DNA of 64,000 nucleotides. Source: an uncultured Pseudomonadota bacterium. GTDB taxonomy: Bacteria; Pseudomonadota; Gammaproteobacteria; Steroidobacterales; Steroidobacteraceae. Under the pieces are notes generated by a model. The model saw only the letters and a list, made by a program, of their open reading frames with translations, had not been told where the DNA came from and did not search any database. Shown piece by piece: positions 33,293 through 58,165 of the stretch (within the stretch, counting starts at the first letter, position 1; the number at the start of each line of letters is the position of its first letter). The stretch covers positions 186,001 to 250,000 of the forward strand of contig CAIRLC010000019.1 in NCBI GenBank assembly GCA_903879335.1. Reading direction: 5' to 3'. The position numbers and the translations under genes were made by a program.

Positions 33293-34966
33293 ATGAGCGG
33301 CGAATTGGACCAAGGGCGCCCGGGGCGTGCCTACACGCTCCTGCTGCTCGCCTTTGCTCTGGCGTATCTCGCTTTGCTGGGCGTGCGCCCGCTGTTCAAC
33401 CCAGACGAAGGTCGTTATGTCGATATTCCGACTGAAATGTTGGCGTCGCACGACTTTGTTTTGCCACATCTCAACGGCGTCGCCTATCTGGAGAAACCAC
33501 CGCTGCAGTATTGGCTGAGCGCGGCCACACTCTCGGTCTTCGGCCATAACGAATGGGCGGGGCGCCTCGTTGCCGCCTTAGCGGCCCTGTTGGGCGTCGT
33601 GACCGTCAGGCGCTTAGCGCTACGCCTTTACGGTCCTGAGCGAGCGCGCTTTGCAGCTATCATGACGGCCAGCATGCTGCTCTACGTGCTCATGGGTCAG
33701 CTAACGACCTTGGACATGCTGCTCAGCACGTGGTTGACGATCGCGATTGCCGGGTTCTGTCTGGCGCAAGCAGATCGAGAGCATGCGCCTACAGCCACTC
33801 GTCAATGGATGCTCGTCTGTTGGGCCGCCATGGGCGCTGCGACGCTCACCAAAGGCCTGATCGGTCTGGTTTTGCCGGGTGGCGTGCTGGTTTTATACAC
33901 GTTGCTGCAGCGCGACTGGACGGCGTGGCGCCACTTACATCTCGGTAAGGGCCTCCTGTTATGCGCAGCCATCGTCGTCCCGTGGTTTGTAATGGTCGAA
34001 CGGGCCTATCCAGGCGCTTTTGACTTTTTGATCATTCGTGAACATTTCCAACGTTATCTGACGAAGATGCATGACCGCTACGAACCGTGGTGGTTTTTCA
34101 TCGAGATCATTGCCGCGGGCTCGCTGCCGTGGCTACCGCAGATTGTTTCGGCCTACCTGTACGGATGGCGGGCCCGCGTCGCTCGCGGCCACTTTGATGC
34201 TGATCGCGTATTGTGGGTCGCTGCCGTCTTTATCGTCGCGTTTTACTCGGCTTCAGATTCTAAGCTCGCCCCCTACGTGCTGCCGGTCCTGCCGGCACTC
34301 GCACTGCTCGGTTCGCGGATCGATGCGGCGGGCGAGCGGCTGCTGCCTTGGAATAGCCGTCTGATGATTCTGCTCGGCATCGCCGCACTGATCGCAGCAG
34401 CAGCGGCAGGCCACAGTGAGACGCGCGTGATGCAGGCCTGGCGGATCGCGCAGTTGCGGCCATGGTTCGTGGGGGTTGGACTGCTCTATGTCGCCGGCGG
34501 ACTGAGCAGTTTTTGGGCTGCGAGGCGCGCTCGTTTTGACGCAGCCCGATTACTCATCGCCGCCACAGGCTTCAGCGCCGTGATGGTTTTGGCGACCGGT
34601 GCATTCACGTCTATCGCCACGCTTTATTCGATCAAGCCACTGCTGAGTCGTGTGGGGACGATCGATCCAGAGGGCACGATCTACACCGTCCGCGATTACG
34701 ACTGGACCTTACCCTTTTATGCCGGACATCCGGTCATACCGGTTGTATATACCGGCGAAATGGAGATGGGATTAAACGCCGCTCCATCCCACGGAGTGCG
34801 GTCACTCGATGCCTTTGTACAACTCTGGCGCGAACCGACCGATACGAACCTTAAGCCCATGTACGCACTCGTTCGGCTGGAGGATTTCGATCACTTCAGC
34901 GCGGCCGGGTTGCCTATGCATGAACTCGCGCGTGACTTTGATCACGTCTTCGTCAGCCGATGGTGA
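33293..34966 (+). CDS. arnT: ArnT-like lipid A aminoarabinose transferase (PMT-family glycosyltransferase)
   Basis: Integral membrane glycosyltransferase of 557 residues that moves 4-amino-4-deoxy-L-arabinose from undecaprenyl phosphate to lipid A on the periplasmic side, lowering affinity for polymyxin and cationic peptides. The first periplasmic loop carries the catalytic motif FNPDEGRYVDIPTEML, and about a dozen hydrophobic helices follow, then a C-terminal periplasmic domain. Context fixes the assignment: arnB, arnC, both ArnA halves and arnD follow directly. Here arnT is the first gene, unlike the enterobacterial arnBCADTEF order. Confidence 0.88.
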   Translation: MSGELDQGRPGRAYTLLLLAFALAYLALLGVRPLFNPDEGRYVDIPTEMLASHDFVLPHLNGVAYLEKPPLQYWLSAATLSVFGHNEWAGRLVAALAALLGVVTVRRLALRLYGPERARFAAIMTASMLLYVLMGQLTTLDMLLSTWLTIAIAGFCLAQADREHAPTATRQWMLVCWAAMGAATLTKGLIGLVLPGGVLVLYTLLQRDWTAWRHLHLGKGLLLCAAIVVPWFVMVERAYPGAFDFLIIREHFQRYLTKMHDRYEPWWFFIEIIAAGSLPWLPQIVSAYLYGWRARVARGHFDADRVLWVAAVFIVAFYSASDSKLAPYVLPVLPALALLGSRIDAAGERLLPWNSRLMILLGIAALIAAAAAGHSETRVMQAWRIAQLRPWFVGVGLLYVAGGLSSFWAARRARFDAARLLIAATGFSAVMVLATGAFTSIATLYSIKPLLSRVGTIDPEGTIYTVRDYDWTLPFYAGHPVIPVVYTGEMEMGLNAAPSHGVRSLDAFVQLWREPTDTNLKPMYALVRLEDFDHFSAAGLPMHELARDFDHVFVSRW

Positions 34967-34970
34967 TGCC

Positions 34971-36092
34971 ATGAGCTCAACCTTTTTACCATTCACCCGC
35001 CCGTCCATCGACGATGAAACGATCGCTGATGTCGTCGCAGTACTTAAGGGTGGTTGGATCACCACGGGACCGAGGGTCGCGGCGCTAGAAAAAGCCCTAT
35101 CAGATTACCTCGGTGGTCGGTTCGTGCGCAGCATGACCTCAGCCACCGGCGGCATGGAAATGGCACTCAAGGCCATGGGCGTAGGCCCCGGCGATGAAGT
35201 TGTGGTTCCGGCCATGACTTTTGCCGCTTCGGCCAATGTGGTTGAACGACTAGGTGCCCGAGCTATCTTTGTGGATGTCGAATTGCGCTCCCGCAATGCG
35301 ACCCCCGCGGCTCTTGCGGCGGCGATAACGCCCCGAACGAAAGTCCTCATGCCAGTCCATTTCTCCGGCCTCGCCGTAGACATGGATGGGGTGTTGGAAC
35401 TCGCAACACAGCACCGCTTGCGCGTGTTGGAAGATGCCGCGCATGCCATTGGCACGCGCTATAAGGGACGTCTCATCGGCAGCTTTGGCGACGTGGCTAG
35501 CTTCAGCTTCCATGCAAACAAGAACATGACCTGTATCGAAGGTGGCGCGTTGTCTTACACCGATACAGCGCTGACTACGCCGCTGGAACGCGAGCGATTT
35601 CACGGCATTGCCAAAGATGCGGCGGGCAACATTGATATCGAAACCGCTGGCGGAAAGTTCAATTTGACCGATGTCGCCGCAGCGGTCGGGCTTGGTCAGT
35701 TGCGGCACCTCGAGGGCTTCAACAGGCGTCGAGGCGAACTCGCCGCACGCTATGAAGCTCGCTTATCTCCCTACGTCGAAGCCGACCGCCTCCCGCAGAC
35801 TGGGGACGGGCACAGCTGGCATATGTACCCGCTGTTATTGCCCCTTGCCGAACTGGGCACAACGCGCGATGCGTTCATCGCCGCAATGCGCGAGCGCAAT
35901 ATTGGACTTGGCATCCACTATCCTTGCCTACCCGCGATGAGCCACTACCGCTCGCTCGGCTGGAATCCGGCCGATTTCCCGAACGCGGCACGAATTGGCG
36001 CAGAAACCGTGACTCTGCCACTCTTCCCCGCCATGGCCGACCACGATGTCGACCGTGTCTGCGATGCCCTACTCGAACTTTTGCCGCGTTGA
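34971..36092 (+). CDS. arnB: UDP-4-amino-4-deoxy-L-arabinose aminotransferase
   Basis: PLP-dependent DegT/DnrJ/EryC1-family aminotransferase, 373 residues, converting UDP-4-keto-pentose to UDP-L-Ara4N with glutamate. Visible motifs are GGWITTGPRVAALE, PAMTFAASANVV, the cofactor Asp in EDAAHAIG, and the PLP lysine in FHANKNMT followed by EGGAL. The ATG at 34971, four bases after the arnT stop, is the right start; the track frame opens inside arnT. Confidence 0.92.
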   Translation: MSSTFLPFTRPSIDDETIADVVAVLKGGWITTGPRVAALEKALSDYLGGRFVRSMTSATGGMEMALKAMGVGPGDEVVVPAMTFAASANVVERLGARAIFVDVELRSRNATPAALAAAITPRTKVLMPVHFSGLAVDMDGVLELATQHRLRVLEDAAHAIGTRYKGRLIGSFGDVASFSFHANKNMTCIEGGALSYTDTALTTPLERERFHGIAKDAAGNIDIETAGGKFNLTDVAAAVGLGQLRHLEGFNRRRGELAARYEARLSPYVEADRLPQTGDGHSWHMYPLLLPLAELGTTRDAFIAAMRERNIGLGIHYPCLPAMSHYRSLGWNPADFPNAARIGAETVTLPLFPAMADHDVDRVCDALLELLPR

Positions 36093-36102
36093 GGCCTATC
36101 CC

Positions 36103-37071
36103 GTGACCGCACCTGTCCTGTCTGTCGTCATCCCGGTCTTCAACGAAGAGGCGGTTCTGCCGTCGCTGTTTGATCGCCTGTACCCAGCACTTGATGCGTT
36201 AGATCGTCCTTATGAGGTTGTCTTCGTCAACGACGGCAGCCGTGACAATTCTGTGGCCTTACTGCGCGCGCAGTACCAGCGTCGACCACACGAAACGCGT
36301 GTCGTTCTGCTGCAGGTTAATTTTGGCCAGCATGCGGCAATTTTGGCCGGCTTCGCGCGTTCGCGCGGCGCTTACGTCGTCACCTTAGATGCTGATCTAC
36401 AAAATCCGCCCGAAGAAGTTGGCCGTTTGTTAGAGCAATTGGAAGCCGGCTACGACTACGTCGGCACTTGGCGTGCAAAGCGCCAAGACAATTGGTTCCG
36501 CAAATATGCGTCGCGGGTCGTGAATGTGGTTCGAGCCAAACTCACCGGCATTCGTATGGCGGATCACGGGTGCATGCTGCGTGGCTACGCTCGGCCTGTC
36601 ATCGATGCGATCAATGCCACGCGGGAAAACGTCACTTTCATTCCAGCGCTCGCATCGATTTATTCTGCGCGATCCATCGAGATTGAAGTTCAACACGATG
36701 AGCGAATCGCCGGCACCTCGAAATACTCGCTGCTACGCTTAATCCGACTGACCTTCGACCTGATGACCGGCTTCTCGACCGTGCCGTTGCAGGTGTTTTC
36801 GTTGGTGGGATCGGTGGTCTCTGCGTTGTCAGCGATTTTGGTCGTGTACATGCTCGGACGACGTCTGTTTTTGGGCCCAGAAGTCGACGGAGTCTTCACC
36901 CTGTTCGCCATCGTCTTTTTCTTCCTCGGCATTGCGCTTTTTGGGATCGGACTCTTGGGCGAATACATCGGACGCATCTATCTGCAGGTGCGGCAGCGCC
37001 CGCGCTACTTGATCGGCGCGGTGCTGGGTGAATCCGCGGATGAGCCGCGCGGTTCTCGCCGGGACGAGTGA
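36103..37071 (+). CDS. arnC: undecaprenyl-phosphate 4-deoxy-4-formamido-L-arabinose transferase
   Basis: GT2 glycosyltransferase of 322 residues that transfers formylated Ara4N to undecaprenyl phosphate on the cytoplasmic side. Motifs are SVVIPVFNEEAVLP, VFVNDGSRDNS, TLDADLQNPPEE and the Asp/His of MADHGCMLRGY, followed by two C-terminal membrane helices. GTG at 36103 with GAGG eight bases upstream (overlapping the arnB stop); the track start lies in arnB. Confidence 0.92.
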   Translation: MTAPVLSVVIPVFNEEAVLPSLFDRLYPALDALDRPYEVVFVNDGSRDNSVALLRAQYQRRPHETRVVLLQVNFGQHAAILAGFARSRGAYVVTLDADLQNPPEEVGRLLEQLEAGYDYVGTWRAKRQDNWFRKYASRVVNVVRAKLTGIRMADHGCMLRGYARPVIDAINATRENVTFIPALASIYSARSIEIEVQHDERIAGTSKYSLLRLIRLTFDLMTGFSTVPLQVFSLVGSVVSALSAILVVYMLGRRLFLGPEVDGVFTLFAIVFFFLGIALFGIGLLGEYIGRIYLQVRQRPRYLIGAVLGESADEPRGSRRDE

Positions 37072-38009
37072 TGCGCACCACGGCAATCGTCTTCGCTTAC
37101 TCCGAAGTGGGTGCTCGCGGCCTTCAGACGCTCCTGGAGGCAGGCATTGACGTACGCCTCGTCTTCACCCACGAAGACGACCCAAATGAGCAGCGCTGGT
37201 TCGCCAGTGTGGCGGACGTCGCCCAACGTGCCGGCGTGCGGACCGTGGCCCCAGCCGACCCGGCGACGCCCGAGTGGCTGGCAGAAATTGCCGCCATCGC
37301 GCCCGAGTTCGTGTTCTCGTTCTATTATCGGCGCATGCTGCCGGAGTCGATCCTAGTGCTCGCGCGCCAAGGCGCATTGAACATGCATGGCTCGCTGCTA
37401 CCGAAGTACCGTGGACGCGCGCCAGTGAATTGGGCCGTGCTGAACGGCGAGACCGAAACCGGTGCGAGCCTGCATTACATGGTGGCCAAACCGGATGCCG
37501 GTCCGCTGGTCGATCAAGAATCGGTACCGATTGGCCCTGACGATACCGCCTTTGAGGTGGCTGACCGGGTCGCAAGTGCGGCCGTGACGGTCCTCAAGCG
37601 GGCGTTACCGGGTCTAGTGGCTGGGACGGCGCCGAAAATTCCGCTTGATCTGAGTCAGGGCTCATATTTCGGTGGCCGCAAACCCGCTGACGGGGAGTTA
37701 TCGCTATTTTGGCCGGCCCAGCGCTTCCATAATCTGGTGCGTGCCGTGGCCCCACCGTTCCCGGGCGCGTTTCTGAGGCTCGGTAATGTCATAATTCGGA
37801 TTCATCGGACCCGGCTCCTGCCGCCGGCCGAGGCGACGTGCTCCGGCCCGTTGCTCGAAATCGAGAACGAACGCCTGATTGCGACCTGCGCTGATGGTGG
37901 CCGACTTGAGATCCTTGAGGCAGTGATGGACAACGGCGCCTTTGACACAGCGCGCTTCCGAACGACATTCGGTTGCGCGGCCGTGTACGCCACCCCAAAC
38001 GGGACCTGA
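37071..38009 (+). CDS. arnA: UDP-L-Ara4N formyltransferase (stand-alone ArnA N-terminal domain)
   Basis: 312-residue formyltransferase that N-formylates UDP-Ara4N with 10-formyl-tetrahydrofolate. The formyltransferase signature is MHGSLLPKYRGRAPVNW and the catalytic Asp is in PDAGPLVDQE; the C-terminal part has the OB-like domain (PPFPGAFLRLGN). In E. coli this is the first half of the bifunctional ArnA; here it ends with its own stop 12 bases before the dehydrogenase gene. Start ATG at 37071 shares a base with the arnC stop; a GTG one codon earlier is possible. Confidence 0.9.
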   Translation: MRTTAIVFAYSEVGARGLQTLLEAGIDVRLVFTHEDDPNEQRWFASVADVAQRAGVRTVAPADPATPEWLAEIAAIAPEFVFSFYYRRMLPESILVLARQGALNMHGSLLPKYRGRAPVNWAVLNGETETGASLHYMVAKPDAGPLVDQESVPIGPDDTAFEVADRVASAAVTVLKRALPGLVAGTAPKIPLDLSQGSYFGGRKPADGELSLFWPAQRFHNLVRAVAPPFPGAFLRLGNVIIRIHRTRLLPPAEATCSGPLLEIENERLIATCADGGRLEILEAVMDNGAFDTARFRTTFGCAAVYATPNGT

Positions 38010-38021
38010 GAGTAGAACAAC

Positions 38022-39074
38022 ATGAAAAAAGTATTGATCCTTGGCGTGAACGGCTTCATCGGCCACCACTTGAGCCGTGCCATCCTCGAGCAAACGGATT
38101 GGCAGATTTGGGGTATGGACATGCAGGACGATCGCGTCCGCCACCTCAAGGACAACCCGCGCTTTCACTTTTTTGAAGGCGATATCACGATCAATAAAGA
38201 GTGGGTCGAGTACCACATCCGTAAGTGCGACGTCATTCTTCCCTTGGTTGCGATTGCGACGCCGCAAACCTATGTGCGCGATCCGCTGCGCGTCTTCGAA
38301 TTGGATTTTGAAGCCAACCTGCCGCTGATTCGGCAGTGCGTCAAATACAAGAAGCGCGTCGTTTTCCCGTCCACCTCTGAGGTGTACGGCATGAGCGAAG
38401 AATCGGTGTTCCACCCACACACGTCACCGTTAGTTTGCGGACCGATCGAAAAGCAGCGCTGGATTTACTCCTGCAGCAAGCAGCTTTTGGATCGCGTCAT
38501 TTTCGCTCATGGTCAGCGAGACGGTCTTGATTTCACGTTGATTCGCCCATTTAATTGGGTGGGACCTGGCCTCGATTCGCTGGCGACGGCGAAAGAAGGC
38601 TCAAGCCGCGTAGCCACGCAGTTCCTCGCGCACATTGTCCGCGGCGAAGACATCAAGCTCGTAGACGGCGGCGCGCAGCGTCGCTGTTTCACCCACATCG
38701 ATGATGGTATCGACGCGCTTGTTCGTGTGATTCGCAACGAGGGCGGCATCGCCTCGGGCAAGATCTATAACATCGGCAACCCGGACAACGATCTGTCGAT
38801 TCGCGAATTGGCTGAGCGCATGATCGCCATGGGTCGCCAGCATCCCGCCTATGCCAAGAATGCAGCCAATGTCGGCATCCGTGAAGTCAGCTCCGGCGAG
38901 TTCTACGGCAAAGGCTATCAAGACGTTAAGACTCGCGTGCCTTGGGTGAACAACACCAAAGAAGAGCTGGGCTGGTCACCTAAGGGCTCGATGGATGACA
39001 TCTTGCACGCTGTGTTTGAAGGTTATGCCGCCGAGGTGACGGCTGCCGCGGACCTGTTGGACGACGGTGCCTGA
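38022..39074 (+). CDS. arnA: UDP-glucuronic acid decarboxylase (stand-alone ArnA C-terminal domain)
   Basis: 350-residue short-chain dehydrogenase/epimerase-type enzyme that oxidatively decarboxylates UDP-glucuronate to the 4-keto pentose. Rossmann motif VLILGVNGFIGHHL, the Ser/Thr of FPSTSEVYG, and the YxxxK of RWIYSCSKQLLDRVI are all present, and the sequence is close in style to the E. coli ArnA second half. Two separate genes thus replace the fused ArnA. UDP-glucuronate must be made by a Ugd encoded elsewhere. Confidence 0.92.
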   Translation: MKKVLILGVNGFIGHHLSRAILEQTDWQIWGMDMQDDRVRHLKDNPRFHFFEGDITINKEWVEYHIRKCDVILPLVAIATPQTYVRDPLRVFELDFEANLPLIRQCVKYKKRVVFPSTSEVYGMSEESVFHPHTSPLVCGPIEKQRWIYSCSKQLLDRVIFAHGQRDGLDFTLIRPFNWVGPGLDSLATAKEGSSRVATQFLAHIVRGEDIKLVDGGAQRRCFTHIDDGIDALVRVIRNEGGIASGKIYNIGNPDNDLSIRELAERMIAMGRQHPAYAKNAANVGIREVSSGEFYGKGYQDVKTRVPWVNNTKEELGWSPKGSMDDILHAVFEGYAAEVTAAADLLDDGA

Positions 39075-39080
39075 GCTCCT

Positions 39081-39989
39081 GTGAGAATCGCGCTCAAAGT
39101 TGACGTCGACACGTACCGGGGCACCCAGGAAGGGGTCCCGGCATTGGTCAACGGCTTAGATGCGCGCGGACTCAAAGGCAGCTTTTACTTCAGCTTGGGC
39201 CCAGACCACACCGGTTGGGCCCTTCGGCGGGTGTTTCGTCCGGGCTTCCTGAAAAAAGTACAGCGCACCTCAGTCGTCAGCCATTACGGCATTCGGACTT
39301 TGCTGTACGGCACCTTGCTCCCCGGCCCTCATATCGCCCGCAAGCTCGGCGATGTTCTGCGCTGGACCGGGAGCCGGGGCCATGAGACTGGCATCCACTG
39401 TTACGACCACGTCTACTGGCAGGATAACGTCGCCAACCGCGGCCCCGATTGGACCACGCGTCAGTTCCTGCGGGCCTGCGACGCGTACCGGGCGACCTTT
39501 GGTCTAGCCGCGAAAGCGCACTGCGCGGCCGGTTGGCAATTGAACCCAACCCTGTTTGCGCTCGAAGATGCGGCCGGCTTGGATTACGCCTCCGATACGC
39601 GAGGCACACATCCTTTCCTGCCCGTCATGGGCGCTGTCCGCGCGGGTTGCCCGCAACTGCCCACGACCCTGCCGACCCTCGACGAACTGGTGGGCCTTAA
39701 CGGCCTTACCGTCGATGGAGCGATTGATCAGATCCTGGATCTGACGGATCACCCCAATGCGGCAGGGCTGCATGTCTATACCTTGCATGCGGAATTGGAG
39801 GGACAGCGCTTTCTGGCGCCGTTCCTGCGCCTCGTTGACACCTGGCGAGCGCGTGGTTTCACGGTCGGTACCATGGGCGAGGCCGCCGCCGAGCTCGATC
39901 CGCGCAGCCTACCCCGCCATTCGGTGGTGATGGGCGAACTCGAGGGGCGCAGCGGCCTGCTGGGTCTACAAGCTGAGGCTGTAGCCTAA
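39081..39989 (+). CDS. arnD: 4-deoxy-4-formamido-L-arabinose-phosphoundecaprenol deformylase
   Basis: Polysaccharide-deacetylase-fold enzyme (NodB-like), 302 residues, removing the formyl group after transfer to undecaprenyl phosphate. The N-terminal KVDVDTYRGTQEGVP and the HETGIHCYDHVYWQD region supply metal and catalytic residues, and LHVYTLHAELEG closes the active site. GTG start six bases after the preceding stop. Last arn gene; no arnE/arnF flippase genes follow. Confidence 0.9.
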   Translation: MRIALKVDVDTYRGTQEGVPALVNGLDARGLKGSFYFSLGPDHTGWALRRVFRPGFLKKVQRTSVVSHYGIRTLLYGTLLPGPHIARKLGDVLRWTGSRGHETGIHCYDHVYWQDNVANRGPDWTTRQFLRACDAYRATFGLAAKAHCAAGWQLNPTLFALEDAAGLDYASDTRGTHPFLPVMGAVRAGCPQLPTTLPTLDELVGLNGLTVDGAIDQILDLTDHPNAAGLHVYTLHAELEGQRFLAPFLRLVDTWRARGFTVGTMGEAAAELDPRSLPRHSVVMGELEGRSGLLGLQAEAVA

Positions 39990-40017: not shown

Positions 40018-40036
40018 CTGTACAGGACTTGTATAG
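40018..40036 (+). promoter_or_regulatory. tandem 11-bp repeat resembling a CarH/LitR light-responsive operator
   Basis: CTGTACAG (40018-40025) and TTGTATAG (40029-40036) repeat with an 11-bp period. CarH-type B12 photoreceptor repressors are known to recognise nTnTACAn half-sites at 11-bp spacing; the first copy matches fully and the second at all but one fixed base. The pair lies 67-85 bases upstream of the first photolyase start. A small 5-bp hairpin (40065-40079) lies in the leader. No CarH/LitR gene is in the window. Confidence 0.4.
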
Positions 40037-40102: not shown

Positions 40103-41686
40103 GTGTCACCCCACGCCTTCACCCATTCTGTCCATCCGGGCGGCCGCCTGCTGCTCGTGCTCGGCGACCAGCTCGATCGGAACTCCCCAATGCTGAACGG
40201 CTTGGATGTCCAGTGCGACACCGTTTTGATGGCTGAGGTCCTCGGCGAGAGTACGCGCGTACTCAGCCATGCCGCCCGCACGGCCTTGGTCTTCTCGGCT
40301 ATGCGCCATTATGCAGACGAGCTCAATCAGCGCGGGCTGCGCGTTGAGTACCTGAAGATCGGCCAGCATCCGCACGAGTCCCTCGAAGCGGCACTGAGAC
40401 AAACCATCAGCGTGCACAAGCCACGTCAGGTTCTCGCGGTCTGGCCGGGCGACCACGGCTTGAAGCAAAGTTTGGATGAGGTCTGCCGAGAGGCTGGCCT
40501 GACTCTCGAATGGCAGCAAGACACGCATTTCCTCTCCACGCTGGACGAGTTCGCTCAGTTCGCGGCTGGCCGGCGCGTCTTGCGCCTCGAGCATTGGTAC
40601 CGACAATTGCGCCGCCGGACCGGCATTTTGATGGAGGGCGACCAGCCTGCCGGCGGTCAGTGGAATTTCGATGCCGACAATCGCAGCGCCTTTGGCCGTG
40701 AGGGACCTGGAGTCCTGGCAGCACCTGCCGCCTTCTCGCCGGACGCCATCACGCGCGAGGTCTTGTCTGACGTGGCAACGCACCTCCCGCAGCTCCCCGG
40801 ATCCTTGGCGCGATTTCAATGGCCGGTGACCCCAGCGGATGCCCAGGTGGCACTGGCCGACTTTGTGCGCGAGCGTTTGCCTTTGTTTGGTCATTACCAG
40901 GATGCGATGTGGCGCGGCGAAGACACCGTCTACCACTCACGCCTTTCTGCCGCGCTTAATCTGAAATTGATCGCGCCGCATACGGTCATCGACGCGGCGG
41001 TCGAGGCGTGGCGCACCGGCCATGCGCCCCTCGCCGCCGTCGAGGGCTTTGTGCGCCAGATTTTGGGTTGGCGAGAATATGTACGCGGGCTGTACTGGCA
41101 GCGGATGCCGGACTATGCCCACGGCAATGCGCTCAATGCCCACGAGCCGTTGCCGGCATTTTATTGGGATGCCAACACCGAATTCGCATGCCTCGCCGAT
41201 ACGATTGGTCGAACATTGCAGACCGGTTATGCCCACCACATCGAACGATTGATGGTCACCGGTTTATTTGCTTTGTTATTAGGCGTCGAGCCGAGCGAGA
41301 TCCACCAGTGGTACCTCGGCATCTACGTGGACGCCTTCGAATGGGTTGAGTTGCCTAACGTGATCGGCATGAGTCAATACGCAGACGGTGGCATCATGGC
41401 GTCGAAGCCATACATTGCCAGCGGCCGTTATATCGAGCGCATGAGTAATCATTGCGACCACTGCCCCAAGCGACCAGCGGAGGCCACCGGACCGCGCGCA
41501 TGTCCGTACACGACCCTCTACTGGGACTTCCTTGACCGTCACCGCGAGCGCTTTGTGAAGCATCCCCGGCTCGGGCAACAGGTCCGCAATTTAGACGCGC
41601 GTCCTGAGGCCGCGCGTGCCGCCATCCGTGACGCCGCAGCAACCCTACGCCTAGCGCTGCGCACTGACAAAGAGACTGTCGTATGA
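40103..41686 (+). CDS. iron-sulfur bacterial cryptochrome/(6-4) photolyase-like protein
   Basis: Photolyase-related protein of 527 residues of the FeS-BCP/CryPro group, whose characterised members repair (6-4) photoproducts with FAD and a [4Fe-4S] cluster. Cys363, Cys451, Cys454 and Cys467 (in FACLADT, CDHC and ACPYTTLYW) have the same spacings (88, 3, 13) as the cluster ligands of Agrobacterium PhrB as I know them. FAD-domain motifs include GWREYVRGLYW and YADGGIMASKPYIASG. The GTG at 40103 (TGGAG upstream) is preferred to the TTG at 40061 in the track. Overlaps the next photolyase gene by four bases. Confidence 0.9.
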   Translation: MSPHAFTHSVHPGGRLLLVLGDQLDRNSPMLNGLDVQCDTVLMAEVLGESTRVLSHAARTALVFSAMRHYADELNQRGLRVEYLKIGQHPHESLEAALRQTISVHKPRQVLAVWPGDHGLKQSLDEVCREAGLTLEWQQDTHFLSTLDEFAQFAAGRRVLRLEHWYRQLRRRTGILMEGDQPAGGQWNFDADNRSAFGREGPGVLAAPAAFSPDAITREVLSDVATHLPQLPGSLARFQWPVTPADAQVALADFVRERLPLFGHYQDAMWRGEDTVYHSRLSAALNLKLIAPHTVIDAAVEAWRTGHAPLAAVEGFVRQILGWREYVRGLYWQRMPDYAHGNALNAHEPLPAFYWDANTEFACLADTIGRTLQTGYAHHIERLMVTGLFALLLGVEPSEIHQWYLGIYVDAFEWVELPNVIGMSQYADGGIMASKPYIASGRYIERMSNHCDHCPKRPAEATGPRACPYTTLYWDFLDRHRERFVKHPRLGQQVRNLDARPEAARAAIRDAAATLRLALRTDKETVV

Positions 41687-43143
41687 GTATCGCTATCGTC
41701 TGGTTCCGCCATGATTTGCGCTTGACTGATCACCCGGCGCTGGAGGCGGCAGTCGCCGCGGGACACACCGTCGTGCCGGTTTACATCGACGCGCCCGAAG
41801 AAGACGCGCCGTGGTCCATCGGCGCAGCGAGCCGTTGGTGGCTACATCGCAGCTTGACGGCGCTGGCTGATGACCTCGCCCGTCGAGGCTCCCGCCTGAT
41901 CATTCGCCGCGGCTCTACGCTCGAGCAATTGCGTGACATTGCAGCGAGCACCGGTGCAACCGAGGTGCATTGGAATCGCCAGTATGAGCCGGCTTCATTG
42001 GCGCGAGATACCGCCGTCAAAGCCGCCTTGCGCGCCGATGGCCTGACGGTCGACAGCCACTGCGGCAATGTTCTGTTCGAACCGTGGACCGTCAAGAGCG
42101 GCGCCGGCACCCCCTTTCGGGTATTTACCCCATTCTGGAAACATTGCCTCACCCGACTGAGCGAAGTTCCCCGCCCAACGCCCGCGCCGCAACAGCTGAA
42201 GGCGCCACCGCAATGGCCGACCACTCTCGAGATCGCGACTCTGAAGTTAGCTCCAAACATCCCGTGGGACAGCGGCTTTGTCGACCTATGGACGCCGGGC
42301 GAAGCCTCTGCCCTCGACCGCCTTGAAGCCTTCCTCGACCAGGATGCAGGTGACTATCGCGAGCAACGGGACCGGCCCGACCTGCCCGCCACCTCGCGGT
42401 TGGCACCCGCGCTCCATTTCGGGGAAATTTCGCCCCGGCAAATACTCGCCGCTGCGCAAAGCGCCGCCTCGCGCGCCTCGGTCACCGAGACAGCCGGCAT
42501 TGACGCCTTCGTCCGAGAAATCGGCTGGCGCGAATTCGCCATTCATATTCTTTTCGCGTTCCCGCACACTACGGAATTGCCGCTGGATGCACGTTTCACC
42601 GCTCTGCCGTGGGCCTCTGACGACGCCATTCTCGACGCCTGGCGTCGTGGACGGACCGGCATTCCATTGGTCGACGCCGGCATGCGCGAACTGTGGCACA
42701 CCGGCTGGATGCATAATCGAGTGCGCATGGTCGTGGCCTCGCTACTGACGAAAAACTTAGGGCAGCACTGGCTACATGGCGCTCGTTGGTTCTATGACAC
42801 GCTCGTCGATGCCGACCTGGCGGCGAATACCCTGGGTTGGCAATGGACGGCGGGTTGCGGCGCGGATGCCGCCCCGTACTATCGGATCTTCAATCCGGCA
42901 CTCCAAGCCGAGCGCTTTGATCCTGATCGGGCCTATATCCGTCGCTGGGTACCAGAAATAGCGGCCTTACCCAACGCATGGATACACAAGCCGTACGATG
43001 CACCTGCTAACGTACTGGCCGCTTCGGGGGTGGTGCTTGAGCGCGACTATCCCCGACCCGTCCTGGACTTAACCACCGGACGGGATCGCGCCTTGGCCGC
43101 CTATGACGCGGTCAAAGCTGCGCGAGTAGAACCTGCGCGCTGA
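41683..43143 (+). CDS. phrB: deoxyribodipyrimidine (CPD) photolyase
   Basis: Light-driven repair of cyclobutane pyrimidine dimers. 486 residues with the N-terminal antenna domain (IVWFRHDLRLTDHPAL, VHWNRQYEPA) and the FAD-binding C-terminal domain (WHTGWMHNRVRMVVAS, DLAANTLGWQWTAGCGADAAPYYRIFNP), which includes the tryptophans used in flavin photoreduction. ATG overlaps the stop of the preceding photolyase. Having two photolyases in one operon covers both main UV lesions. Confidence 0.95.
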   Translation: MSIAIVWFRHDLRLTDHPALEAAVAAGHTVVPVYIDAPEEDAPWSIGAASRWWLHRSLTALADDLARRGSRLIIRRGSTLEQLRDIAASTGATEVHWNRQYEPASLARDTAVKAALRADGLTVDSHCGNVLFEPWTVKSGAGTPFRVFTPFWKHCLTRLSEVPRPTPAPQQLKAPPQWPTTLEIATLKLAPNIPWDSGFVDLWTPGEASALDRLEAFLDQDAGDYREQRDRPDLPATSRLAPALHFGEISPRQILAAAQSAASRASVTETAGIDAFVREIGWREFAIHILFAFPHTTELPLDARFTALPWASDDAILDAWRRGRTGIPLVDAGMRELWHTGWMHNRVRMVVASLLTKNLGQHWLHGARWFYDTLVDADLAANTLGWQWTAGCGADAAPYYRIFNPALQAERFDPDRAYIRRWVPEIAALPNAWIHKPYDAPANVLAASGVVLERDYPRPVLDLTTGRDRALAAYDAVKAARVEPAR

Positions 43144-43158
43144 TTGTCGGAGAAATAC

Positions 43159-44106
43159 GTGTTTGGAAAATCTAGCGGATTCAATCCGCTGCAGTTGGTC
43201 AAAGCGTGGTTTGACACGGACGCTAGTCTCTCGCCTGAGAGCGATCCACGATCCATTGATCTGGGCCGCATCGTGCCGTTTATTGCGATCCATCTCACCT
43301 GTCTATTGGTATTTTGGGTCGGAACCAGCCCGATTGCGCTGCTGACGGCGCTGGGCCTTTACGTACTGCGGATGTTTGCGATCACGGGGTTCTACCACCG
43401 CTATTTCTCGCACCGCGCCTTCCAGACTTCGCGGATCGCCCAATTTATTTTCGCGGCGCTTGGCGCCATGGCCGTACAACGCGGTCCACTGTGGTGGGCT
43501 GCACATCACCGCCACCATCACGCCCACTCGGATCAACCACAAGATGCCCACTCCCCCCGTCAACACGGTTTCTGGTGGAGTCATATGGGGTGGTTTCTGG
43601 CGCGTGGCAACTACCGCACAGAATCAAAGCGCATCCGGGACTTGGAACAATTTCCCGAATTGAGGTGGCTTGATCGCTTTGATATCGCGATGCCCGTGCT
43701 ACTTGCGGTCGGACTCTTCGCTGTTGGCGTCGCACTCCAGCACGACGCGCCTCATCTGCACACCAGTGGCGGACAGCTACTGATTTGGGGCTTTTTTGTC
43801 TCTACGGTTGTTTGCTATCACGCGACTTATACGATCAACTCCCTATCGCATGTCATCGGACGCCGTCGTTATCGCACGCCCGATGACAGCCGCAACAACA
43901 TCTGGTTGGCCCTCCTCACGCTCGGCGAGGGCTGGCATAACAACCATCACCACTATCCGAAATCGGCGCGCCAAGGGTTCTACTGGTGGGAAATCGACGT
44001 GACCTTTTACCTTTTACGTGTCTTAGCGTGGCTCGGCGTGATCTGGGATCTGCAGCTGGTACCCGCTACGGTGCGCGATAGCCGTCGCCTAAACGCGGGA
44101 TCCTAA
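43159..44106 (+). CDS. membrane fatty acid (acyl-CoA/acyl-lipid) desaturase
   Basis: Di-iron membrane desaturase of 315 residues, probably delta-9 type. The three histidine boxes are present: HRYFSHRAF, HHRHHHAHSD and HNNHHHYP. Two pairs of hydrophobic segments flank them. The GTG at 43159 has GGAG six bases upstream; the TTG at 43144 in the track is less likely. Lies within the photolyase operon and touches the next gene by one base (TAATG). Substrate and position of the double bond are not readable. Confidence 0.88.
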   Translation: MFGKSSGFNPLQLVKAWFDTDASLSPESDPRSIDLGRIVPFIAIHLTCLLVFWVGTSPIALLTALGLYVLRMFAITGFYHRYFSHRAFQTSRIAQFIFAALGAMAVQRGPLWWAAHHRHHHAHSDQPQDAHSPRQHGFWWSHMGWFLARGNYRTESKRIRDLEQFPELRWLDRFDIAMPVLLAVGLFAVGVALQHDAPHLHTSGGQLLIWGFFVSTVVCYHATYTINSLSHVIGRRRYRTPDDSRNNIWLALLTLGEGWHNNHHHYPKSARQGFYWWEIDVTFYLLRVLAWLGVIWDLQLVPATVRDSRRLNAGS

Positions 44107-45368
44107 TGACCCAGTCGTCTCGTTCAATCGCGATCATCGGCAGCGGCATTGCTGGACTCACGGTGGCTGAAGGGCTACATCGGCATCGTCCGATCACGGT
44201 CTATGAGTCTGAAGCTTGGATCGGTGGGCACACGCACACGGTGGATGTGCAGGAGGCCGACCGTGTTGTTTCGGTGGATACCGGATTCATCGTCTGCAAC
44301 GAGTGGACCTATCCAAATTTCCTGGCCCTACTCGCCCGTTACGGAATCAACACTCAGAATTCCAACATGAGCTTTGCGGTCTCGGACGAATGCACGGGCC
44401 TTGAATACAACGGTACGAATCTCAATACCTTATTCGCGCAGCGCCGCAATGTGTTTTCGCCTGGATTTCTCGGAATGATTGCCGACATCCTGCGATTTAA
44501 CCGAGCGGCACCCGCGTTACTTGAAGAACCAGGACCAGGCCCAACGCTCGGCGAATGGCTGTCCCAACACCGGTATGGGCGCCGCTTCCTGGAGCACTAC
44601 ATCGTTCCGATGGGTCGATCCATCTGGTCCGCACAGAAGGATGCGCTGCTGGGATTTCCAGCAAGATTCTTCGTCGATTTTTTCCAGCGCCATGGCTTTT
44701 TGAATATAGACAATCGCCCCGTTTGGCAGGTCGTGCCGGGCGGCTCATCACGCTATGTCGAAATCATCACGGCGGCCTTCCGCGATCGAATCCGCACCTC
44801 GACGCCCATCCAATCGATCACGCGCCACGCAGACGGTGTCACCGTGGTCTTGGGCGACGGCACAGCCGTACAGCATGATGCTGTTGTGATCGCCACGCAT
44901 GCAGACTCTGCCCTCAAATTACTGGGGGACGCTTCCGCCGAGGAACGAGCTTTACTCGGTGCTTTCCCTTTTGAGCCCAATGACGTGGTTCTGCACACGG
45001 ACCAGCGATTGCTCCCCACCGTCCCTCTGGCGCGTGCGGCTTGGAACTTTCAGATTCGGGCGGATCGGGATACTGGCTGCTCGCTGACCTATGACATGAA
45101 CGTGCTGCAATCCCTCAACAGTGCTCAACGGTACTTGGTGTCGCTCAATCTCACCGATCGCATTGATCCGGCGAAGATATTGGGTCGCTGGAATTACGCG
45201 CATCCGGTTTACACACCAGCAGCCGTGGCTGCACAAGCGCGACATACAGAAATTAGCGGCCAGCGAAACACCTACTACGCCGGGGCCTACTGGCGGTATG
45301 GATTCCATGAAGATGGGGTCGTCAGCGGTTTAAGCGTGCTCGATCAGCTCGGCATCCCGCGAGCCTGA
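44106..45368 (+). CDS. flavin amine-oxidase-like oxidoreductase (FAD/NAD(P)-binding)
   Basis: 420 residues with an N-terminal dinucleotide-binding motif IAIIGSGIAGLTVAEGL, the conserved SVDTGFIVCNEWTYPN that follows it in this group, and GGSSRYVE in the middle. Members typically sit next to DUF1365 and Cfa-type genes, as here, and take part in modified fatty acid formation. In Rhodobacter, related genes belong to the singlet-oxygen (RpoE-ChrR) response, as I recall. The exact reaction is uncertain: desaturation of a methylated acyl chain is one possibility. Confidence 0.82.
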   Translation: MTQSSRSIAIIGSGIAGLTVAEGLHRHRPITVYESEAWIGGHTHTVDVQEADRVVSVDTGFIVCNEWTYPNFLALLARYGINTQNSNMSFAVSDECTGLEYNGTNLNTLFAQRRNVFSPGFLGMIADILRFNRAAPALLEEPGPGPTLGEWLSQHRYGRRFLEHYIVPMGRSIWSAQKDALLGFPARFFVDFFQRHGFLNIDNRPVWQVVPGGSSRYVEIITAAFRDRIRTSTPIQSITRHADGVTVVLGDGTAVQHDAVVIATHADSALKLLGDASAEERALLGAFPFEPNDVVLHTDQRLLPTVPLARAAWNFQIRADRDTGCSLTYDMNVLQSLNSAQRYLVSLNLTDRIDPAKILGRWNYAHPVYTPAAVAAQARHTEISGQRNTYYAGAYWRYGFHEDGVVSGLSVLDQLGIPRA

Positions 45369-45369
45369 C

Positions 45370-46113
45370 GTGCGCAGTTGCCTGTACATCGGCACCGTAC
45401 AGCACCAGCGTTATGCGCCGAAACGTAATCGCTTTCGGTACCGCTTGATGTACGCCCACCTCGACTTAGACGAGTTGGGTTCCGTGTTCGCGAACCGATG
45501 GCTCTGGTCGACGCGGCGGTGGGCACCGATCCAATTCCGCCGAAGCGACTATCTCGCCCCTACGGATCAACCGCTTAAAACGGTCGCCCTAGACGCCATC
45601 GAATCGGCCTTGGGGCGTCGGCCGAGCGGCGCCGTGCGGCTGCTTGGACATCTGCGACACTTTGGCTATTGCTTTAACCCCGTGACCTTCTATTACGCCT
45701 ATGAAGGGGAACGACTCGACGCCATCTTGGCCGAGATCACCAATACCCCTTGGGGTGAACGGCATCGATACGTGCTCGACCTGGCGCAAGCTGAACGCTC
45801 GGGGGAAACCTCGGTGTTTCGCTTCGCGAAAGACTTTCACGTGTCTCCATTCTTGCCGATGGATATCAACTACGAATGGCGTTTTAGTGAACCTGGCAAC
45901 ACGCTCTTTGTGCACATGATCGACCGACAGGATGAAGATCTCGTATTCGATGCCACGCTTGCTCTCAAACGTCGCAGCATCAGCGCCCAAGAACTGGCCA
46001 TCGCTTTACTGTTATTCCCGTTCATGACGCTGAAAGTTATCTTTTTGATTCACTGGCAGGCTTTGCGCCTGTTAGTAAAGCGCACCCCGTTCTACAACCA
46101 CCCGGATCTGTGA
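45370..46113 (+). CDS. DUF1365 family protein
   Basis: 247-residue protein recognisable by LYIGTVQHQRYAPKRNRF at the start, HLRHFGYCFNPVTFYYAY in the middle and the KDFHVSPFLPMD stretch. A hydrophobic segment lies near the C-terminus (IALLLFPFMTLKVIFLIHW). No biochemical role is established that I know; it almost always occurs between the flavin oxidoreductase and Cfa-type methyltransferase, so it likely shares their lipid pathway. GTG start one base after the previous stop. Confidence 0.88.
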   Translation: MRSCLYIGTVQHQRYAPKRNRFRYRLMYAHLDLDELGSVFANRWLWSTRRWAPIQFRRSDYLAPTDQPLKTVALDAIESALGRRPSGAVRLLGHLRHFGYCFNPVTFYYAYEGERLDAILAEITNTPWGERHRYVLDLAQAERSGETSVFRFAKDFHVSPFLPMDINYEWRFSEPGNTLFVHMIDRQDEDLVFDATLALKRRSISAQELAIALLLFPFMTLKVIFLIHWQALRLLVKRTPFYNHPDL

Positions 46114-46114
46114 C

Positions 46115-47386
46115 ATGAGTCAGACGATCATCCCCACATCTCGCCCCAGCAGTACCGAAAGAGCGCCGCCATTCACGGCCTTGGCCCGCCGCACGCTGAC
46201 CGCGCGTTTGGCACGCTTGACGGACGGTTGCCTGAAGATCGCCAGTTCCGATGGATCGCTCTCGTTCGGACAAGCAACACATGACCTTCCCATCGTCGAA
46301 ATCGCGGTTCATTCCGAGCGTTTTTGGGGGGCAGTTGCGTTCGGCGGATCGGTCGGAGCGGGTGAAAGCTACATCGCAGGTGATTGGCAGGTTAACGATC
46401 TCACTGCCCTGATCCGTTTGATGACTCGCAATGCCAGCGTACTTGACGATCTTGAAGGCGGTTTGGCACAAATCGTCGAACCCGCGCGGCGTCTCCTGCA
46501 TTGGTTCAATCGCAATAGTCTGACCGGCAGTCGTCGCAACATCGCCGCCCATTACGATCTCGGTAATGCTTTTTTTGAACGCATGTTGGACCCGACGATG
46601 GCCTATTCGAGTGGGATATACCCCTCCGAAACGGCAACTCTTCATGACGCCCAACTGCACAAGTTCGACACCATTTGTCGAAAGTTAGCGTTGTCACCGG
46701 GGGATCGGCTGCTTGAGATCGGGACTGGATGGGGTGGCCTCGCCATTCATGCCGCCAAACACTATGGCGCTCAGGTCACCACCACGACGATATCGCGCGA
46801 GCAATTCGAATACGCCCAAGAGGCGGTCGCTCGGGCAGGCGTCACCGATCGCGTCACGCTGCTGTTTGAGGACTACAGGGCGCTCACCGGCACCTTCGAT
46901 AAATTGGTGTCGATTGAAATGATTGAAGCGGTCGGGCATCAGTTCTTAGACACGTACCTCGGGACTTGCGCTCGTCGTCTAGCCCCGCACGGGATGATGC
47001 TATTGCAGGCGATTACCTTGCAGGACCAGTCGTACGCCGCGGCTCTCAAGCAGGTCGACTTTATTCAACGCTTTGTTTTTCCGGGTAGTTTCATTCCCTC
47101 CATCGGAGCGATCACAAGCTCGATCACCCGCGCGACCGACTTCAAGGTCTTCCATTTGGAAGATATCGGACCGCATTACGCCCGAACACTGGCCGACTGG
47201 CGTCACAACGTGTTTGCGGACACGGATGCTATCCGCGGCTTAGGCTATTCCGACGAGTTCCTGCGCCTATGGGAGTTTTATCTCTGCTACTGCGAAGGCG
47301 GATTTATGGAACGACACATCGGCGACGTTCAGATGCTCCTCACAAAACCTCGCTGCACCCGCGCGCCGCTGTTGGTGATGGCGTGA
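46115..47386 (+). CDS. cyclopropane-fatty-acyl-phospholipid synthase-family methyltransferase
   Basis: SAM-dependent enzyme of 423 residues that modifies double bonds of membrane phospholipid acyl chains. Signs are DPTMAYSSGIYPS, the SAM site LLEIGTGWGGLAIHAA, SREQFEYAQE and MIEAVGHQF, and FVFPGSFIPS. The chain is close to E. coli Cfa in length, but the setting (flavin oxidoreductase, DUF1365, photolyases) is that of paralogues making methylated or furan fatty acids rather than the general stress Cfa. Product is therefore uncertain. Confidence 0.88.
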   Translation: MSQTIIPTSRPSSTERAPPFTALARRTLTARLARLTDGCLKIASSDGSLSFGQATHDLPIVEIAVHSERFWGAVAFGGSVGAGESYIAGDWQVNDLTALIRLMTRNASVLDDLEGGLAQIVEPARRLLHWFNRNSLTGSRRNIAAHYDLGNAFFERMLDPTMAYSSGIYPSETATLHDAQLHKFDTICRKLALSPGDRLLEIGTGWGGLAIHAAKHYGAQVTTTTISREQFEYAQEAVARAGVTDRVTLLFEDYRALTGTFDKLVSIEMIEAVGHQFLDTYLGTCARRLAPHGMMLLQAITLQDQSYAAALKQVDFIQRFVFPGSFIPSIGAITSSITRATDFKVFHLEDIGPHYARTLADWRHNVFADTDAIRGLGYSDEFLRLWEFYLCYCEGGFMERHIGDVQMLLTKPRCTRAPLLVMA

Positions 47387-48816
47387 TGGATCAGTCGCTG
47401 CGTGAGGCCTTGCTCAGTCGAGTTGGCCCCAGTGGACTTCTGGAAGGACCAGACCTGGATCGCTACACGACCGACCATCGTCGTCTTTACCGCGGTCAGG
47501 CGAGGTTTGTCGTGCGCCCGAGCAACACTGCCGAAGTCGCCGCTGTCGTCGAACTGTGCGCCACTCAGGGCATTGCCATGGTGCCCCATGGCGGCAATAC
47601 ATCCTACTGTGGTGGCGCAACCCCCGATGAGTCTGGTCTACAGGTCGTGATTAGCCTCGAGCGATTACATCGTATCCGAGCGATTGATGCTGTCGGCGGT
47701 ACCTTGGTGGTCGAGGCCGGTTGCACGTTACGGGCCGTGCGCGAGGCAGCGGCATCTGTCGGCCGGCACTTCCCGCTGTCTCTCGGCTCCGAAGGCACTT
47801 GCCAGATAGGAGGCAACCTGTCGACCAACGCTGGCGGCACTCAAGTGCTTCGGCATGGAATGATCAGAGACTTGGTATTAGGTTTAGAAGTGGTGCTTCC
47901 AGATGGTCGGGTGTTAAATCAATTGCGTCAATTGCGCAAAGACAACACCGGCTATGACCTAAAGCAACTCTTTATCGGCGCAGAGGGGACCCTCGGAATC
48001 ATCACTGCAGCGGCGTTGCGGATCGGTACGGCCCCACGAGATGCCTTGACGGCATTGGTGGGTGTCGAGAGTCTCGAGGCGACGCTCGCGTTACTGGGCC
48101 GCGTACGCGAAGCCTTTGGAGATCTGGTCGAGACCTTCGAATACATGCCCGAGTCGGCGGTGACTCTCGCGCTCAAGCATTTCCCGCAATTAAAAAACCC
48201 GTTTGACACGGCGCATCCAGCCATCGTGTTGGTTGAAATTCCCTTGCCAGCCGCATTGAGTGGTCTGCATGAGTCGTTCGCACACTTAATGGCTGCAGAA
48301 ATTGAAGCCGGACGCGTCCGCGACGCGGTTGTAGCTCACTCCCTCAGCCAAGCTGATTCCTTTTGGTTCCTGCGCGAAAATATTCCAGCCGCCCAAACGC
48401 GGGAAGGCGCATCGCTCAAACACGATGTCTCCTTACCGCTGGATCGCCTCGCCGAATTTGAACAGCGCGGACTTAGAATCATCGCGGATTTGATCCCGGG
48501 CGGTCGCAGCATTGGCTATGGCCATGCCGGCGACGGCAATCTTCACTTCAACGTAAGTCCAGCTCTGGGCATCGAGAAAAACTCAGCCTTAGAGGCTGCT
48601 TTTCTCGGCCACAAAGAGTCGCTCATGCGCGCACTCCATGACTTAGTCGCAGAACTTGGCGGTAGTTTCAGCGCAGAACATGGCATCGGACGTCTCAAAG
48701 TCGATGAGTTGGCGCGGTATGAGGATCCTGTTGCGCTGGATCTGATGACCCGAATCAAACAGGTCTTAGATCCAAATCGTCTGATGAATCCTGGCAAAGT
48801 GGTGCTGCCAAAATGA
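47386..48816 (+). CDS. FAD-linked oxidase (D-lactate/D-2-hydroxyglutarate dehydrogenase family)
   Basis: 476 residues with a PCMH-type FAD-binding domain (VVRPSNTAEVAAVVELC, PHGGNTSYCGGATPD, GSEGTCQIGGNLSTNAGG, FIGAEGTLGIIT) and an FAD-oxidase C-terminal domain ending SAEHGIGRLKVDEL and NPGKVVLP. Oxidises a D-2-hydroxy acid, probably passing electrons to the respiratory chain. The ATG at 47386 shares a base with the Cfa-type stop. Its place in the photolyase operon is unexpected; substrate unknown. Confidence 0.87.
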   Translation: MDQSLREALLSRVGPSGLLEGPDLDRYTTDHRRLYRGQARFVVRPSNTAEVAAVVELCATQGIAMVPHGGNTSYCGGATPDESGLQVVISLERLHRIRAIDAVGGTLVVEAGCTLRAVREAAASVGRHFPLSLGSEGTCQIGGNLSTNAGGTQVLRHGMIRDLVLGLEVVLPDGRVLNQLRQLRKDNTGYDLKQLFIGAEGTLGIITAAALRIGTAPRDALTALVGVESLEATLALLGRVREAFGDLVETFEYMPESAVTLALKHFPQLKNPFDTAHPAIVLVEIPLPAALSGLHESFAHLMAAEIEAGRVRDAVVAHSLSQADSFWFLRENIPAAQTREGASLKHDVSLPLDRLAEFEQRGLRIIADLIPGGRSIGYGHAGDGNLHFNVSPALGIEKNSALEAAFLGHKESLMRALHDLVAELGGSFSAEHGIGRLKVDELARYEDPVALDLMTRIKQVLDPNRLMNPGKVVLPK

Positions 48817-49388
48817 CCAGTCGCCGACCGCCGGTGGCTCCTATTACGACAGCGCGCTTGGTCCTGCGCCGGTTTCAGGCGGGTGATCTGGAACAATTAC
48901 GGCGAATTGTAGATGACCCCTCCGTAAAAGCCTTCTCGCCGGATGAACCTCGCGCAATAGCTGCCGCGGAACATGCGGAGCGCGGAGGCCGCAATCGACA
49001 CCCCGCTGACTTTGAATTTGCCATCGTCGTCCGTCGCACTGGTCGTGTAGCCGGGGCCTGTGAGCTCGTCATAGGACCACGCCGTTCCGGTGAAATCGGC
49101 TACTTGCTGGGCCGCCGGCATTGGGGACACGGCTACGCAACAGAGGCCGTACAGGCATTGGTTTCTTTCGGCTTTGACGGCCTGTCTCTCAATCGCTTGC
49201 ATGCCATAGTCTCTCTAGACAATGCGCGCTCACGCCGCGTACTCGAGAAGGTCGGTTTTTGCTGGGACGCGCTATTACGGCGACCTGCACGCACCGCCGG
49301 GCGCGCCCTGGATGCAGAACGGTACGTCCGCGACTTTGATATGCCGGTAATCCCACCTTGCCGTAACCGCCGTATCGGCCGATCATGA
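48813..49388 (+). CDS. GNAT N-acetyltransferase, RimJ/RimL-like
   Basis: 191-residue acetyltransferase beginning with the RimJ-type ITTARLVLRRFQAGDLEQL. Acetyl-CoA binding is at GYLLGRRHWGHGYATEAV and the C-terminal part has LHAIVSLDNARSRRVLEKVGF. Overlaps the preceding gene by four bases, making it the last clear member of the photolyase operon. Target unknown. Confidence 0.87.
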   Translation: MTSRRPPVAPITTARLVLRRFQAGDLEQLRRIVDDPSVKAFSPDEPRAIAAAEHAERGGRNRHPADFEFAIVVRRTGRVAGACELVIGPRRSGEIGYLLGRRHWGHGYATEAVQALVSFGFDGLSLNRLHAIVSLDNARSRRVLEKVGFCWDALLRRPARTAGRALDAERYVRDFDMPVIPPCRNRRIGRS

Positions 49389-57209: not shown

Positions 57210-57210
57210 A

Positions 57211-58158: not shown

Positions 58159-58165
58159 GGAAACC

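Follow-up and report, generated by a model that had tools for sequence, protein, structure and literature searches.

The 64,000-nucleotide stretch of DNA examined here (G000:C19:186001-250000, hereafter the window) belongs to a freshwater bacterium with a 3.14 Mb, 97%-complete genome, whose nearest named relative is a metagenome-assembled gammaproteobacterium (L032). Between positions 40103 and 52134, the window carries a compact series of genes for two photolyases, for relatives of the enzymes that build furan fatty acids, and for several further proteins, preceded by a conserved repeat that resembles the operators of light-responsive repressors. Our analysis indicates that these nine genes probably constitute an operon that is derepressed by light via a MerR protein of the CarH/LitR type, and that its output is a pair of photolyases together with a furan-containing lipid.

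Gene content and conservation of the probable operon

Eight open reading frames (ORFs), each with a strong Pfam match, follow one another on the + strand from 40103 to 49388, as an earlier note on this DNA had listed them. These genes, the predicted operator that precedes them, and the gene that follows them are given below.

40019-40035, + strand: predicted CarH/LitR-type operator, TGTACAGGACTTGTATA, two TGTAYA half-sites 11 bp apart
40103-41686, + strand: gene 1, FeS-BCP photolyase (PhrB/CryB type), a predicted (6-4) photolyase; PF04244, 229 bits
41683-43143, + strand: gene 2, class III cyclobutane pyrimidine dimer (CPD) photolyase (PhrA type); PF00875/PF03441
43144-44106, + strand: gene 3, membrane acyl desaturase of the SCD/delta-9 type with three His boxes; PF00487
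44106-45368, + strand: gene 4, UfaD-type flavin desaturase (amine-oxidase-family flavoprotein); PF01593
45370-46113, + strand: gene 5, predicted UfaO-type (DUF1365) furan-forming oxygenase; PF07103, 265 bits over the whole protein
46115-47386, + strand: gene 6, UfaM-type S-adenosylmethionine-dependent acyl methyltransferase; PF02353 (CMAS)
47383-48816, + strand: gene 7, D-2-hydroxyglutarate-dehydrogenase (D2HGDH)-like FAD flavoprotein; PF01565 and PF02913
48813-49388, + strand: gene 8, GNAT acetyltransferase (Acetyltransf_3); PF13302, 104 bits
49417-52134, + strand: gene 9, DUF748/AsmA-like protein; PF05359, 544 bits

The earlier note described gaps of 1-15 bases or overlaps between the first eight genes. 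The packing is indeed tight, and tighter than those figures suggest, with neighbors overlapping by at most 4 bases or lying at most 1 base apart. Genes 1 and 2 overlap by 4 bases, genes 2 and 3 abut, genes 3 and 4 overlap by 1 base, and a single base separates the UfaD-type gene 4 from the UfaO-type gene 5 and gene 5 from gene 6. The overlap of genes 6 and 7 is 1-4 bases, depending on the start of gene 7, and that of genes 7 and 8 is 4 bases. For gene 7, the start in the ORF table (47269) lies too far upstream; the corrected start is 47383 (GTG) or 47386 (ATG), which is also where the orthologue in genome G007 begins. The DUF748 gene starts 28 bases past gene 8, and 8 of the 30 family loci have it along with the cluster; the operon therefore probably continues beyond 49388, with this gene as its ninth and last member. 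All genes in the 40-52 kb portion of the window lie on the same strand, and terminator-like matches in the operon region are no commoner than in shuffled sequences. When genes 1-7 were compared with those of G007, nonsynonymous divergence (dN) was 0.11-0.25 against near-saturated synonymous divergence (dS), and these genes are therefore under purifying selection.

The two photolyases can be assigned to specific classes. The best solved structures for gene 1 are CryB (3zxs) and PhrB (4dja), and all four cysteines of the 4Fe-4S cluster align with those of CryB; the corresponding positions in PhrB have been described (PMC3204975). Gene 2 scores highest against 4u63 (471 bits), followed by plant cryptochromes (367-388 bits) and the E. 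coli class I enzyme (288 bits). It thus resembles PhrA and the plant cryptochromes more than the class I enzyme, which places it in class III. The earlier proposal that one operon joins two photolyases to acyl-chain modification is supported.

A survey of 30 loci from the family, covering regions of up to 20 kb, revealed the order ufaD-ufaO-methyltransferase in 29 of them, the exception being G043. Within these regions we also found the desaturase (22 loci), the FAD oxidase (20), the CPD photolyase (18), GNAT (12), DUF748 (8) and the FeS photolyase (5). Given this shared order and the frequency of the partners, the grouping is more than chance. All eight genes occur in the same order in G054, which represents another genus. 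Comparison of the window proteins with fetched loci shows that desaturase-ufaD-ufaO-methyltransferase is a widespread block: Verrucomicrobia have it, and Planctomycetes, Sumerlaeota, and many Gammaproteobacteria have at least some of it. The desaturase is therefore not the unusual addition that it had been taken for. The further additions, namely photolyase and FAD oxidase, GNAT, or DUF748, are characteristic of the window's own family.

A chalcone-isomerase-like gene (PF16036) is found at L115:6826-7365, with the photolyase on one side and the desaturase/ufaD on the other. Similarly placed genes occur in G037, G050, G031, G001, and G012, and the same family appears near the operon end in Pseudoalteromonas and Aeromonas. 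The window has no such gene.

The predicted operator and its candidate repressor

The predicted operator (TGTACA-N5-TGTATA) is an 11-bp tandem repeat located 67 bases before the start codon of gene 1. It matches the half-site pattern at 12 of 12 positions, and when the 150 nt upstream were shuffled 2000 times with dinucleotides preserved, no match as good arose. At the orthologous position, G007 carries TGTACAGGTCTTGTGTA, which matches at 11 of 12 positions. The published CarH operator consists of tandem 11-bp repeats of the form nnnnTnnACAn (PMC9304148), and the window site has this 11-bp register rather than the 18 bp of the Pseudomonas class II LitR sites. We considered and rejected the N12 spacing of the Pseudomonas type, as the window site has N5 and as N12 is unenriched in the promoters of the MerR genes described next.

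A candidate regulator is encoded outside the window, on contig C7 of the same genome. This CarH-like protein has a MerR domain and both cobalamin (B12) domains, with PF13411 and PF02607 over their cut-offs and PF02310 matched below its own, and its best solved structure is Thermus CarH. The promoter of its gene carries CGTATAGTATGTGTACA. Among the promoters of its orthologues, 14 of 17 score at least 11 of 12 at a spacer of 5, whereas no other spacer in the range 0 to 15 gives more than 4 such promoters. Across the entire genome, the spacer-5 pattern is matched with no more than one mismatch at only 10 places. Just two of these immediately precede a gene start in the correct orientation, one at the operon and the other at the MerR gene, and several of the remaining places fall inside genes. 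G011 has a further operator match, with photolyase and desaturase on either side. The MerR protein also retains the residues that align with Trp131, His132, Glu141, and His177 of Thermus CarH. Together, the operator matches favor the earlier suggestion of a link to light or singlet oxygen, and they point to a repressor of the CarH/LitR type.

At a third of these ten places (G000:C22:28138-28154), a perfect spacer-5 TGTAYA repeat precedes a FecR-like gene by about 190 bases. This repeat is either a chance occurrence or a further CarH target.

The predicted furan fatty acid pathway

Three proteins, UfaM, UfaD, and UfaO (the last of the DUF1365 family), turn cis-vaccenoyl chains into methyl furan chains (Lemke et al. 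2020, PMC7380195). In Rhodopseudomonas palustris, RPA2571-2570-2569 correspond to ufaD, ufaO, and ufaM and are sufficient to produce these chains (PMC7380195). Genes 4-6 have this same ufaD-ufaO-ufaM order. The UfaD-type protein is 43% identical to an Azospirillum protein from a chrR/ufaO context and 45% identical to a Pseudoalteromonas protein, and the UfaO-type protein is 36% identical to one encoded on an Azospirillum plasmid close to chrR and a sigma-factor gene.

Gene 6 scores 272.7 bits, compared with the 400-bit cut-off of the Cfa equivalog. In a 133-row tree, methyltransferases linked to ufaO from several phyla group apart from Cfa, forming a UfaM-type clade of 88 rows with 45 rows outside it. 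The bicarbonate ligands of Cfa are Glu239, His266, and Tyr317 in the E. coli numbering (PMC11387697). Gene 6 keeps the equivalents of Glu239 and Tyr317 and has Gln in place of His266. Position 266 is Gln in 87 of the 88 UfaM-type rows, whereas each of the 45 rows outside the clade has His. Among the latter is the Cfa that this genome encodes separately (L133), in which all bicarbonate ligands are intact. The one remaining clade row is an Azospirillum fragment that is misaligned or unscorable at this position. To our knowledge, based on a literature search that was not exhaustive, the Gln266 signature has not been described. The UfaD-UfaO-UfaM order, the separation of the Gln266 clade from Cfa, and the existence of a separate Cfa in the genome make furan fatty acid synthesis the best reading of genes 4-6, which likely produce the compounds that the earlier note had suggested.

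The AlphaFold2 model of the UfaO-type protein (pLDDT 93) has a beta-rich, barrel-like fold. In a fold search against the Protein Data Bank (PDB), no match to this model reached significance (best E 0.0046); weak likenesses were seen to fatty-acid-binding-like and nitrobindin-like barrels (TM about 0.35-0.4). Because nothing significant emerged from this search, we assign no cofactor to the protein, and the model suggests that it may represent a new fold for an oxygenase.

The structures nearest to gene 3 are stearoyl-CoA desaturases. Nothing in the genome matched FabA over the cut-off and six desaturase-family genes are present, which suggests that the synthesis of unsaturated fatty acids is oxygen-dependent in this bacterium. 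Five of the six are genes other than gene 3, and gene 3 was therefore rejected as the sole source of unsaturated chains, even though FabA was not found.

On contig C2 (L135:1363-3245, minus strand), a DUF1295 gene is followed by a third CMAS methyltransferase, whose homologues are close to ufaD-ufaO-ufaM in many phyla. A DUF1295-CMAS pair adjoins rpoE-chrR in Shinella. The L135 protein is about 25% identical to UfaM, comparable to R. palustris FufM (26%), and by analogy it possibly catalyses a dimethyl-furan step.

Proposed mechanism, alternatives, and comparison with known systems

We propose that the operon responds to strong light. In the dark, the C7 MerR repressor, probably loaded with adenosylcobalamin (AdoCbl), would occupy the repeat at 40019-40035 as well as its own promoter. 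Light would break the cobalamin bond, release the repressor, and permit expression of the operon. The two photolyases would then use the same light to mend (6-4) and CPD lesions. Meanwhile, the desaturase would supply cis-monounsaturated acyl chains, UfaM would methylate the double bond, UfaD would add a second double bond, and UfaO would draw on O2 for the oxygen atom that closes a methyl furan ring. The resulting phospholipid-bound chains would scavenge singlet oxygen and peroxides within the membrane. The remaining three proteins are presumably accessory. The gene 7 flavoprotein probably oxidises a D-2-hydroxyacid, and DUF748 may aid lipid transport. The earlier note called gene 7 a D-2-hydroxyacid-type oxidase and tied it to lipid remodelling; the name is correct, and the tie is unproved.

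A narrower proposal, which we hold tentatively and at somewhat less than even confidence, is that a class I (AdoCbl) CarH, a type of repressor known to date mainly from carotenoid genes, directly controls this photorepair and furan-lipid operon in place of the sigmaE-ChrR and LOV/LitR switches of other bacteria, and that the change of His266 to Gln is what turns a Cfa fold into a methyl-alkene-forming UfaM.

Several observations weigh against the proposed mechanism. The position of Thermus CarH His142, which follows Glu141, is Arg in nearly all of the MerR orthologues, making the binding of AdoCbl uncertain. In most other family genomes, a search around the cluster did not reveal the operator, such that the link is seen at three loci only, and just one half-site is a perfect TnnACA. 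Moreover, the orthologous MerR promoters are not fully independent given that the regulators are related. A scan for sigma-70-like promoters found no match for the operon. Finally, the Ufa assignment was made via families, gene order, and homologues, with the authentic proteins of Rhodobacter sphaeroides and R. palustris matched by description.

The same operon could instead be induced by singlet oxygen or oxidative stress through an extracytoplasmic function (ECF) sigma factor. Homologous operons adjoin rpoE-chrR in Pseudoalteromonas, Azospirillum has ufaD-ufaO near chrR and a sigma-factor gene, and furan fatty acid genes are at the core of the sigmaE-ChrR regulon (PMC6852236). However, the 97%-complete genome has no match to the ChrR model TIGR02451, its two Cupin_7 matches were rejected as ChrR candidates because neither is beside a sigma factor, no TGATC box is found in the 320 nt before gene 1, and a conserved CarH-type operator is present. 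We therefore regard ECF control as unlikely. It is also conceivable that the genes are neighbors by synteny only, and that several independent transcripts respond to unrelated signals. Indeed, the block is interrupted in some relatives, for example by the chalcone-isomerase-like gene between photolyase and desaturase, and members have been lost piecemeal across the family loci. Nevertheless, stop and start codons overlap at most junctions, the promoter scan gave no internal match within the operon, and the order is conserved across genera, leaving this arrangement quite improbable.

Two further alternatives concern the lipid product. Genes 6 and 7 overlap, and bfa loci likewise place a Cfa-like gene next to one for an FAD oxidase (PMC7791843, PMC5660069), so the two might act as a Bfa/Tms-like pair in which a methylene fatty acid is formed and then reduced by the FAD protein to a mid-chain methyl-branched saturated fatty acid. 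Among solved structures, however, gene 7 is closest to D-2-hydroxyglutarate dehydrogenase (3pm9, 418 bits; human D2HGDH, 281 bits), and it retains the GHAGDGNLHFN and SAEHGIG motifs of that family. Furthermore, flavoproteins of this type were seen linked to the cluster only within the window's own family, while the methyltransferase accompanies UfaD and UfaO across the loci compared. We give such a pair very little credence. Even less probable is a role of gene 6 as a conventional cyclopropane fatty acid synthase, within a cluster that merely hardens the membrane. Its CMAS domain and the cyclopropane synthase annotation of its relatives would allow this role, but the low Cfa score, the residue change, the separate clade, and the fully intact Cfa encoded elsewhere in the genome led us to reject it. 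Light-derepressed production of photolyases and a furan lipid thus remains our preferred explanation.

Directly 5' of the operon (33293-39989) is an arnT/arnB/arnC/arnA-like cluster for the modification of lipid A with 4-amino-4-deoxy-L-arabinose (L-Ara4N), whose synteny is kept in G007 and partly in G002. A convergent acyl-CoA thioesterase gene lies 3' of the operon, and two adjoining FGE-sulfatase-like (PF03781) genes and an HtrA/DegP-like protease gene are found on the minus strand at 56229-59623.

The earlier note implied that the full combination of genes was new. In fact, photolyase-ufaD-ufaO-ufaM operons with rpoE-chrR or MerR exist in Pseudoalteromonas and Aeromonas, and light induction of phrB and ufaM has been published for Pseudomonas (PMC9758184). 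What is already known, therefore, is the association of this core with light or singlet-oxygen regulators and the desaturase-ufaD-ufaO-ufaM block; what is new is the two-photolyase set with a D2HGDH-like gene and the predicted control by a class I CarH. A literature search for DUF1365 and photolyase in one paper returned none, and PMC9758184 contains such a cluster in which DUF1365 is not named. If our proposal is true, B12/CarH would be a third independent wiring, besides sigmaE-ChrR and LOV-LitR, of a photolyase and furan fatty acid output. This would argue for a core light-protection module that is also present in bacteria not known to be phototrophic. Two predictions can be tested, namely an operator for the purified MerR protein and a single active-site residue that divides UfaM from cyclopropane synthases.

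The Ufa pathway of R. sphaeroides and R. palustris has the same three enzyme families, with the ufaD-ufaO-ufaM order shared with R. palustris. Unlike those systems, the window adds two photolyases, a desaturase, the D2HGDH-like protein, GNAT, and DUF748, and ChrR is undetected in the genome. The annotated plasmid records of Pseudoalteromonas (L142; rpoE-chrR-phrB-NTF2-SDR-ufaD-ufaO-ufaM-DUF2878-CHI-DUF3833) and Aeromonas (L143; a MerR version of the photolyase-ufaD-ufaO-ufaM operon) resemble the window in joining a photolyase to ufaD-ufaO-ufaM in one tight unit, theirs beside a photo-oxidative regulator. They differ in having one photolyase, no desaturase or D2HGDH-like gene, and the regulator within the operon. 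Blue light induces a Cfa-annotated gene and genes of the photolyase family in Vibrio cholerae, a response for which ChrR-sigmaE and MerR have been identified as the regulators (PMC5241685).

The closest regulatory parallels are with LitR and CarH. The Pseudomonas class II LitR (PplR/PmlR) region shares with the window a light-linked photolyase, an FAD oxidoreductase, and UfaM, as well as a MerR/LitR repressor and TGTACA-type half-sites (PMC9758184). However, the Pseudomonas repressor has one of the two B12 domains and is LOV-switched, whereas the C7 protein has both; its half-sites are 12 bases apart (an 18-bp repeat), compared with the 11-bp repeat of the window; and an SDR gene occupies the position of the window's desaturase (PMC9758184). 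CarH of Thermus, Bacillus megaterium, and myxobacteria shares with the C7 protein its domain architecture, most cobalamin-contact residues, and an 11-bp tandem direct-repeat operator that is also present at its own promoter (PMC9304148). The known targets of CarH are carotenoid genes (PMC9304148), whereas the predicted targets here, for a protein with Arg at the His142 equivalent, are furan-lipid and photolyase genes.

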